The position numbers and the translations under genes were made by a program. Positions 3,048 through 63,300 of a DNA stretch of 64,000 bases are shown here, in pieces; position 1 is the first letter of the stretch, and each line of letters begins with the position of its first letter. The stretch covers positions 2,790,001-2,854,000 of the forward strand of contig JASSKH010000031.1 of the NCBI GenBank assembly GCA_031763025.1, in the 5' to 3' direction. The notes beneath the pieces were generated by a model. The model had not been told where the DNA came from and searched no databases. It saw nothing but the letters and a program-made list of their open reading frames with translations. Source of the stretch: Macrocystis pyrifera (lineage: Eukaryota; Sar; Phaeophyceae; Laminariales; Laminariaceae).

Positions 3048-6000
3048 GTGCGCAGTACAGTAATTAGGAAAGCGATGTTGGAAGGCGGGTGGGGGTGGAG
3101 ATGGGGGTCTGGGGGTTTGATTGCGCGTGGGAGGGGTGAGGGGGTAGGGGTTGCGAGGGGTGGAGGAAAGAAAATGTAGTAATCAAAAGAGGATGGGGGC
3201 TGGGGTAGGAATAGGGTATGCAGTATGTAGGGCGGGGGTGGGAGGGAGATCGGTCGGTCGGCTGGTTAGTAAGAGGATGCGGTGTGTCTGTCGGTTTTTG
3301 TCGTTGGATGTCGGTAGGCTGCCAGTCGGTAGGTGACGTCGGTCGGTGGATAAGTAAAGTTGGTGCAGAGAGAAGAGAGAGAGAGAGCAGGGAGGGAGGG
3401 AGGGTGGAAGGGAGGGGGGGGGAGGGAGGGAGGGAGGGAAGGAGGGAGGGAGGGGGGGAAATAGATACAGAGCTGTTAGTTTTCAGTGTGGGAATGCTTC
3501 TTGGCATCGTCGGTGAAAGGCAGTGGTGACGGCGGCCCCGCAGAAAAGGTCGCGCAAACTACAGTACACGCGGGGGGAGAGAGTGATTTGTTTCAACCAT
3601 TGCAGCACATCTGCAGCGACGCGCGGCGTGGGGTGGTCGTTGATATTCTGAAGGTAGCGATCGCATCGTCGACCCCAGGTATTGATAGAAGGCAGCGGCA
3701 AGGTGTTCTCGCTGACCGTGGTGGGACATTGCTCCGTGCTTTTCACGCCGTCGGACTGTTCCATTTTCTCAGCTCGGGCGGGTAATCGATTCCCGCTCGA
3801 TGGCATACAGTATATATTACAACGTTATTAATAGGTATTTTCCGGACCTTAATGGTATGATTTATTTAGCTCATGCTGCCGGGTGTGAAATGTCGATACA
3901 ATCTGGACGATTGATGTAGCACATGTTTCCTGGGGTAGGTATGAACTACGTGTACAGATCCTGCACACTCCTTCACAACGGCAGGCGAGGAACTAGATCG
4001 TCTACAGCAGACAGATAGATTGATATTACGGTGGTCCATAGTTAATAGGACCTATGGTGTACATAAAAACCTACATATTTACCTATTTTTACTAACAATA
4101 TTTGGTCCTGTTTACTATGGTCCCCCGTAGTAGCTAGATAGATCATGATATGTAGATGATCTGTATGATACCGGTATGTTCGAGGCTGTGGGCAGTTTGT
4201 TTCGGCCAATACTGAGGGAGCAGGGGCTGAAACGCCCCCCCCCCCCCCCGCTAGAAAGTACGCACAAGATGCCGAACGTCCGCGTCACAAGCGATTCTTG
4301 GAATTTAGAGGATGTGGCTCACTCCCCGTGCACTCGCCCACCAACCTCACGTTTCCCTGCGCGCTTGATGCAGCAAGCGATGTCTGCCTGCTCCTCGGTG
4401 AAAGCCCGACGTGCTCCGTCCCGGCATTGTATGTAGGGATGCGAGGGTCTGTGGTCATACCACTACTGCCATGCATGGCTTGAGTACACCCCCCCCCCCC
4501 CCCCCCCTTTTTTTCCCTGTAGTATTGTGCACTATAGCACAGGACAGGACACCTATTATGAGGGACCATAGTAAATAGGACCTACGGTACACACGAAAAC
4601 CTATACATTTACCTATTTGTACCAACAATATTTGGTCCTGTTTACTATGGCCCCCCGTAATAAGAAGATGCGGGAAAGCTGGTTCAGCAGGCTGGGTTTC
4701 TTATTCGAGAAGACAGCGCGCTCTCATCGTCTGGGACCCTCCGAACATGCGCCTCGCTGTACCAACCTCAGTGGAACTTGTCCCGAATTTCGTGTTTTCT
4801 TGCATTACGGGGGTCCGTAGTAAATAGGACCTACGGTACACACAAAAAAAACTACATATGTACCTACTTTTAATAACAATATTTGGTCCTGTTCACTATT
4901 TTCCCTCGTAATAGCAACTTCTCGCCCCTACCCTTTCTCAACTGCTGGTTTTCTTAGTATTTTATATTAACAGATGTATTTTTATTTTCTTTCCTTCCTG
5001 CCTTCCCTCTTTCTTTCCTTTTTTGGTGTTCTCGGTGGTCGTTGGTGTTGGCGGCGGCTTTTAAATTGTTTTTGTTTTGTTTTTTTCGCCAGGACATCGA
5101 CCTGGCCGTTATCCTGGGCCTGTGCCTCGACGTGAGCAACTCCAACCCGCGGGACGGGCTGACCAACGAGCAGATGACGCCCTACATCGCCAGGGTTCTT
5201 CGCCAACCGGGGTGCAACTGGATGGTGAGCGTGACTTTTGCGCCTCTCGGCGGCCTAGATACGGGTTGTGGTTTGGAATTTGTATTGGGCCGATCCGTCG
5301 GTTTTTCCGTCGGTCTTTCCGTCGGTCTTTCCGTCGGTCGGTCAGCTGGCGAGTTTTTTTTTTTTTTTTTTCGGTTTTTGTTTTGGTCGGTAGTTTTTGG
5401 TGGGGTTATTGGTGGGTTGTGCAGCTGGAAGTGAGCGCTGTGGTGATTCGCGCGCCCCGCCACCTTGGCTGGATGGCGGCGGGGGTGGGACGTTGGTTGC
5501 CTGTTTTGCTCTTCCATGCGCGTTGTGTCCGTTCGTTTGCCCCCCCCACCTCCCCTCCCCCTATCGAGTACGCCCCCCCCCCCCCCCCCCCCCCCCTCCC
5601 ACGTGCTTTGGAGCCTCTCGATGGCCTATTGATGGGCGTGGACGCCGGTCGCAGCATCATATCCCACCCCTCCTATCCCTCTTCTGCCGTCTTTGACTTA
5701 GGCAAGCAACAAATCACCTGCCCGCCCCCCCCCCCCCCCCCCTGTGACCATGTCCTGCCTTGCTCCCCCCTCGCCGCCCCCCCGCCAAAACAATGTCTGT
5801 CTGGTTGGTGAAACCCCGGCGGGCTCCGCCTCGGCATTGCAGGGGTGCGAGGATATATGGTCATACGACTACAGCAATGCATGAAATAAGTGCACCCCCC
5901 CCCCCCCCCCCCTCCTCCCTGTCCCTTCCTTGCCGCCGCCCCCCCCCCCCCCCCCCACTACCCTGCCCTACCCCTCACCTGCCCCCCACCCTCCCCTCCG

Positions 6001-63300: not shown

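Follow-up and report, generated by a model that had tools for sequence, protein, structure and literature searches.

Copies of a non-coding repeat, family B, adjoin exons, nearly always with their C end facing the exon, both in the stretch of Macrocystis pyrifera DNA analyzed here (64,000 nucleotides of contig JASSKH010000031.1, hereafter the window) and at the exons of other genes in the same genome. This suggests that B repeats land at exon edges and not at random.

Family B is a non-coding retroposon with a full length of about 530 nt. The 3' end of its copies is constant, GAGTAC followed by a run of C, the 5' ends are variable, and many copies are 5'-truncated. There are two subtypes, B1 and B2, the latter shorter and related at its 3' end; in each, GAGTAC precedes the C run. 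The window holds 49 copies (32 B1 and 17 B2), three 5' fragments (8494-8601, 8780-8809 and 42723-42758) having been dropped before orientation, placement and junctions were counted. The 5' start is common to eight long copies, found in the window and on other contigs, and lies some 230-250 nt before B1 position 1; the longest frame in a 556-nt consensus, which includes some flank, is 79 aa. The family thus combines two of the features by which a LINE-dependent, non-autonomous retroposon is recognized, namely a constant, tailed 3' end with variable 5' truncation and a short full-length unit without coding capacity. It looks abundant in the genome, since a DNA search with B returned 3,334 first-look candidates, with 40 of them scored. 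No B 3'-end motifs were found in viral contigs or in bacterial and archaeal genomes, as expected for a eukaryote.

Rfam and tRNA searches of the window gave no match, a crude motif scan of family B found no Pol III box A or box B, and an Rfam-type search of another locus (L018) gave just two microRNA matches, both far below their cut-offs. A Pol III SINE origin is unsupported by the Rfam, tRNA and box A/B scans. Since the test for a Pol III or a tRNA, 5S or 7SL origin leans to the negative, we do not term B a SINE in the strict sense. Most likely, B is copied by the reverse transcriptase of a LINE. A reverse-transcriptase search of the genome gave 7,470 first-look candidates, with at least 150 matches among those listed, and a B-like end was absent from the 3 kb downstream of one of them (L088; C222:269300-272300, 1-3001). 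That match has a long open frame and is probably a LINE; beyond it come some 0.9 kb of different sequence and, after these, an (ACAT)n stretch of about 1 kb, a candidate element tail. The window itself contains a (CATA)n tract at about 1510-1607. The B junctions of the window were viewed by eye only, and their C-rich flanks would hide any target-site duplication; none was demonstrated, and no empty site of a B insertion was seen.

Three genes of the window were rebuilt from the sequence, and Pfam was used on their products, which matched TPR_2 (3e-15), Spherulin4 (3.6e-33) and TM231 (1.9e-38). The first gene is here called TTC27-like, a name that comes from no search result; the C-terminal block of its product (156 aa) had no Pfam match. 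A single open frame runs through six TTC27-like exons; the six consecutive exons over 5093-12639 are separated by five introns, all of phase 0 (between codons). The Spherulin-4 gene lies on the minus strand, and its first placed intron is 9.5 kb long. Both ends could be placed for 18 introns (36 edges, 42 kb). Some exon edges are approximate by a few bases, and those of Spherulin-4 35247-35280 and TMEM231 58050-58097 by tens of bases; the introns upstream of the latter two contain no B copy.

The original prediction named nine acceptors as having a family B copy just upstream with its C tail toward the acceptor. All nine agree with an AG and the reading frame to 1-2 bases, and each has such a copy, at 36-300 bp; we found a tenth case at 38986. 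Inverted copies were said to follow the donors 8315, 19824, 35082 and 58261 and the TTC27-like stop, and these too were located. The copies are given below by window position; distances run from the 3' end of the B body to the exon, unless a tail or run is named.

5788 to 5956, forward strand: B1 copy (body 5788-5891), C tail facing the TTC27-like acceptor 6037, 143 bp
7787 to 7848, forward strand: 3' end of a B1 copy with a C28 tail, 300 bp from acceptor 8120
8120 to 8314, forward strand: TTC27-like exon with a B copy on each side, in sense upstream and inverted downstream
8315 to 8428, reverse strand: inverted B1 copy after exon 8120-8314, its decayed G-rich cap starting at donor 8315; 59 bp
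8654 to 8753, reverse strand: inverted B2 copy with a G38 cap, in the intron after exon 8120-8314
9203 to 9277, forward strand: B2 copy with a C15 tail, 57 bp before acceptor 9321
10021 to 10330, forward strand: long B1 copy away from exons, an exception to the rule
12406 to 12442, forward strand: 3' end of a B1 copy, 53 bp from acceptor 12497
18089 to 18700, forward strand: head-to-tail array of four B copies, each ending in a C run, 45 bp from acceptor 18720
19845 to 20201, reverse strand: inverted long B1 copy with a G54 cap, starting 21 bp after the exon end at 19823; 94 bp from donor 19824
25521 to 25892, reverse strand: weak and strong inverted B1 matches with G-rich caps, after the TTC27-like stop 25483
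34575 to 35020, forward strand: B2 and B1 copies running antisense to Spherulin-4, with a C27 tail toward donor 35082; copy 34961-34994 at 87 bp
36077 to 36593, reverse strand: B1-B2-B2 array at acceptor 36070, last C14 run 6 bp from the exon, body 72 bp
39069 to 39105, reverse strand: 3' end of a B1 copy, about 80 bp from acceptor 38986, absent from the original prediction
40533 to 40941, reverse strand: B1-B2 array at acceptor 40517, C13 run at 15 bp, body at 36 bp
42292 to 42596, reverse strand: B1-B2 array with a C49 tail at acceptor 42263, tail at 28 bp, body at 63 bp
58478 to 58687, reverse strand: inverted B1 copy, 217 bp from the TMEM231 donor 58261
60759 to 61061, forward strand: B1-B2 array with a C13 tail facing the TMEM231 acceptor 61091, 59 bp

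At 18720, the last tail of the array (C11-TA-C12) makes up most of the pyrimidine tract, as had been claimed. Acceptor 8120 is preceded by a pyrimidine-rich tract and a C33 run (8026-8058), the latter 61 bp away. About 22 bp separate the TTC27-like stop from the end of the weak match (25521-25546, E 0.014), and the strong copy, 128 bp from the stop, extends upstream to full length. Long introns show the same placement: in the 6.1-kb intron before 18720 the B copies are confined to the last 630 bp, and the sole B copies of the 9.5-kb Spherulin-4 intron are the 42292-42596 array and its 5' fragment 42723-42758, near acceptor 42263.

A B copy with its C end facing the exon lies within 100 bp of 10 of the 36 intron edges. 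The comparison with random positions that the original prediction called for was run in the window by placing whole clusters at random with random orientation; it gave 0.86 +/- 0.90 such edges, with a maximum of 6 in 20,000 placements. Head-facing copies within 100 bp were found at one edge, through a doubtful 16-nt match, against 0.86 expected. The tail side was nearer the exon in 28 of 34 intronic copies (18 introns, 42 kb) and in 14 of 18 clusters (one-sided P 0.015), the exceptions being the clusters at 9744-10297, 18877 (the doubtful match), 23616 and 62098. As a control, we used the 32 copies of a MITE-like family A in the same introns; these lay within 100 bp of one edge, as compared with 2.8 expected, and family A is not enriched at exon edges. 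Family A is about 111 bp long with inverted ends (CTATTACGGGGGTCC...), occurs at 36 places over window 544-63824 and is common in introns. Other repeats of the window are an inverted repeat at 15036-15324 (two 113-nt arms, 92% complementary, 63 nt apart), a minisatellite array with a 9-bp period at 22563-23069 and beyond, and an array with a 5/10/15-bp period at 60470-60787.

We examined the orientation of B at exons of kinesin (PF00225) and TCP1 chaperonin (PF00118) genes in the genome assembly to which the window belongs (537 Mb, 223 contigs). Eighty of 185 exon matches (131 in the kinesin table, 54 in the TCP1 table) were used with 600-1,500 bp of flank on each side; the sample is mostly kinesin (50 exons, against 30 of TCP1), and its exon edges are the ends of Pfam matches, accurate to some tens of bases. 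A duplicated kinesin gene accounts for three loci (L025, L035 and L037) that were dropped from the genome counts and the divergence comparison. Kinesin exons occur twice, in opposite orientation and with identical scores, at 6.22 Mb and 6.61 Mb of contig C208, suggesting a recent inverted duplication. Copies from overlapping loci were merged in the distance-bin and edge counts and left unmerged in the gene-bin, TCP1-only, donor-side and bracketing counts.

The 50:50 orientation near exons that the original prediction had set as its refutation was not seen in this sample. Within 200 bp of the 80 exons, 20 copies faced the exon with the tail and one with the head (10:0 below 100 bp and 10:1 at 100-200 bp). 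The ratio was 9:3 at 200-400 bp, 3:3 at 400-600 bp and 12:10 at 600-1,500 bp, giving 15:13 for all copies beyond 400 bp. Counted by edges within 400 bp, there were 22 tail and 4 head cases (P 2.7e-4), comprising 11 sense copies at acceptors and 11 antisense copies at donors, with two of each placed the opposite way. The donor side alone gave 10 tail and one head within 200 bp; TCP1 alone gave five tail and one head within 400 bp; and 17 of 19 gene bins favored the tail (P 3.6e-4). Chance, or selective listing in the original prediction, could be suspected because its cases had been picked by eye and clustering lowers independence, as the P value for the 18 window clusters reflects; given that the pattern recurred independently at other genes' exons and that the MITE control was not enriched, we give this reading next to no credence, and chance is rejected on the present sample of 80 exons.

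The original prediction left it open whether the elements supply splice signals, or show preferential insertion or survival next to exons. Within 200 bp, 17 clusters faced the exon with the tail as compared with 2.4 expected, about 7-fold over the density beyond 400 bp (P 1e-9), which supports the second alternative and points to insertion. Head-facing clusters numbered 1 against the same 2.4 (P 0.3; small numbers with little power). Identity to the consensus did not differ between near and other copies in the window and 57 loci (B1, 16 versus 24, P 0.44; B2, 14 versus 15, P 0.54). Since tail-facing clusters are in excess while head-facing ones show no significant deficit, and since divergence is no greater in near copies, the data favor biased insertion over removal of bad orientations as the source of orientation and proximity, in a small sample to which positive retention may also have contributed. 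The first alternative stands in part: at 18720, 36070 and 40517 much of the pyrimidine tract consists of the C tail. As the main cause, a supply of splice acceptors is ruled out, because donors have as many antisense copies beside them as acceptors have sense copies.

Selection on splicing would be a broader form of the same idea, in which B inserts at random and only those copies near exons survive that help or spare splicing, the C tail serving as pyrimidine tract and the G runs as donor-side enhancers. The tails at the three acceptors just named fit it, as does the scarcity of head-facing copies near exons, with the single one within 200 bp. However, losing wrong orientations would leave tail-facing copies at background and not 7-fold above it, head-facing copies are not significantly below background, near copies are not more diverged, and donors are hit in equal numbers; we therefore consider this explanation quite unlikely, and simple purifying selection was set aside as well. 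It is very improbable that B copies created the introns, with the tail as a remnant of the original 3' splice site. Some tails do lie 6-28 bp from the exon, but B fills one end only of introns up to 9.5 kb long, its variable 5' ends provide no fixed donor, and it occurs equally often in antisense at donors. An introner, that is, an element spanning the intron and bringing both splice sites, does not describe copies situated at one intron end.

The 5' junction of B was C-rich (at least 60% C in 20 nt) in 21 of the 49 window copies (13 of 32 B1 and 8 of 17 B2), as compared with 3.1% of random positions. Elements targeted to simple repeats are recognized by insertion inside the target repeat; by this measure, the C-rich junctions of B are far above random, yet not found in all copies. 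A run of at least 6 C lies close to the 5' start in seven of eight full-length copies, and in two of these another B 3' end precedes the run; the C run near the 5' start could belong to the element itself. Part of the 5' C-run signal comes from repeated B1-C-B2 units, which may be mobile as one piece, so that some B2 cases are non-independent. Exon edges free of B show a related skew when runs of 5 or more are masked: within 100 bp upstream, CCC occurs at 17-19 per kb against 4 for GGG (about 4-fold), and within 50 bp downstream, GGG at 14.7 against 8.2 per kb for CCC (about 1.8-fold, weaker beyond). The upstream CCC bias vanishes by 200-300 bp, and the downstream GGG bias drops to the level of the deeper intron. 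Runs of at least 10 on B-free sides faced the exon in a ratio of 11:3 within 200 bp, 1:4 at 200-400 bp, 5:13 at 400-800 bp and 16:16 beyond. Worn tails may account for some of the B-free C tracts. Counting against tract priming, C or G runs of great length also occur without B copies far from exons, e.g., at 49903, 45897 and 41155. In a region without placed genes, C runs of 106 (32209-32314) and 83 bases (32884-32966) were each preceded, as judged by eye, by a worn-looking B 3' end.

We propose that B is a C-tailed, LINE-copied retroposon that reaches exon edges through pairing of its C tail with strand-biased G tracts during target-primed reverse transcription, an explanation to which we assign about an even chance. 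The analysis shows the family, its truncation pattern and tail, its orientation and proximity, the replication at other genes, the C-rich 5' junctions and the skew of B-free edges; the LINE partner, the pairing of the tail and target-primed reverse transcription itself are inferred. A nick would expose the 3' end of a G tract, the C tail of the B RNA would pair with that tract, and reverse transcription would start at the paired end. With a coding strand that is C-rich just upstream of acceptors and G-rich just downstream of donors, such strand-biased tracts would place B in sense ahead of acceptors and in antisense behind donors. Once inserted, a tail would be a new C run, and because such runs would be offered for further insertion, arrays would grow head to tail.

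Tract bias alone may not suffice, because the tract bias on the donor side is only about 1.8:1, yet the orientation bias of the copies there (10:1) is as strong as on the acceptor side. This leaves room for a mechanism anchored to the exon, in which exon chromatin (a nucleosome, RNA polymerase or a histone mark) guides the machinery and the primer is always the DNA 3' end pointing outward from the exon. The C tail facing the exon would then be a rule of geometry, independent of local C or G content. The symmetry of the edges, with 11 sense copies at acceptors and 11 antisense at donors despite the much stronger upstream bias in short tracts, fits this mechanism, whereas a simpler cause is at hand in the C-rich 5' junctions and in the skew that exon edges already have, and we consider this mechanism rather unlikely. 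In a related form, which we likewise regard as rather unlikely, B would be a retroposon homing to exon edges: its machinery would recognize where exons begin and end, in DNA or in chromatin, and would take as primer no DNA end other than the one pointing outward. If this were true, every exon would tend to be framed by inward-facing C tails, some exons would be wrapped in inverted repeats, and splicing would be shaped genome-wide.

The original prediction also raised pairing across exon 8120-8314, which might favor circular RNA or skipping, and such pairing is physically plausible. The predicted duplex of its flanks has -133 kcal/mol, and those of four sampled bracketed exons -120 to -171 kcal/mol, both values coming without a shuffled control from a model that ignores G-quadruplexes. 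Bracketing by copies within 200 bp was found at 4 of the 80 sampled exons, and may point to exons that could form circular RNA. Besides exon 8120-8314, bracketed exons lie at C192:5569159, C208:6745253, C211:11503318 and C212:7459037 of the genome.

One abundant family concentrated beside exons in a single orientation would be a naturally replicated experiment on the site choice of retroposons, and would also probe the effect of C and G runs on splicing. Since the tails form part of some splice sites, B matters for the annotation of such long-intron genomes. The tails may also help to find unannotated exons: among three B tails inspected just outside the window, one (L005:6863) was followed by a plausible exon, with a transmembrane-like segment between AG and GT, and the other two had no obvious exon downstream.

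In a literature search covering titles and the openings of abstracts, we found no description of C-tailed elements facing exons. Waldo, Kibi and Dong are target-specific non-LTR retrotransposons that insert into microsatellites; B would resemble them in inserting into simple repeats, and differs in the target proposed for it, a C tract or C run, and in its strong placement at exon edges. Antisense tails of Alu and other SINEs act as pyrimidine tracts, so that a homopolymer tail is usable as a splice signal in both cases; B differs in that its sense C tails precede acceptors and that antisense copies occur just as often at donors. Intronic transposable elements of mammals are greatly underrepresented near exons, with an orientation bias that is stronger there (PMC3088655); the orientation bias is shared by B, whereas its tail-facing copies are enriched and not depleted. 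Introners (PMC9860276) are likewise mobile elements at splice sites, but B neither spans introns nor carries fixed splice sites. Another close likeness is to RTEX-N1_Ec32 of the brown alga Ectocarpus, a non-autonomous, RTE-X-linked element of about 600 bp, short like B and LINE-dependent, as B most likely is, with a 5' region of unknown origin and more than 6,000 copies that make it the commonest family of that genome, whose LINEs are often 5'-truncated, with many copies in introns and an enrichment in old genes (PMC12477816). Compared by description only, it differs from B in that the word "homopolymer" is absent from the main text of that paper, and in the sections consulted we found no rule of splice-site proximity or orientation (PMC12477816). 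We class B with the LINE-dependent retroposons, as one that follows a new placement rule and is neither a strict SINE nor an introner.
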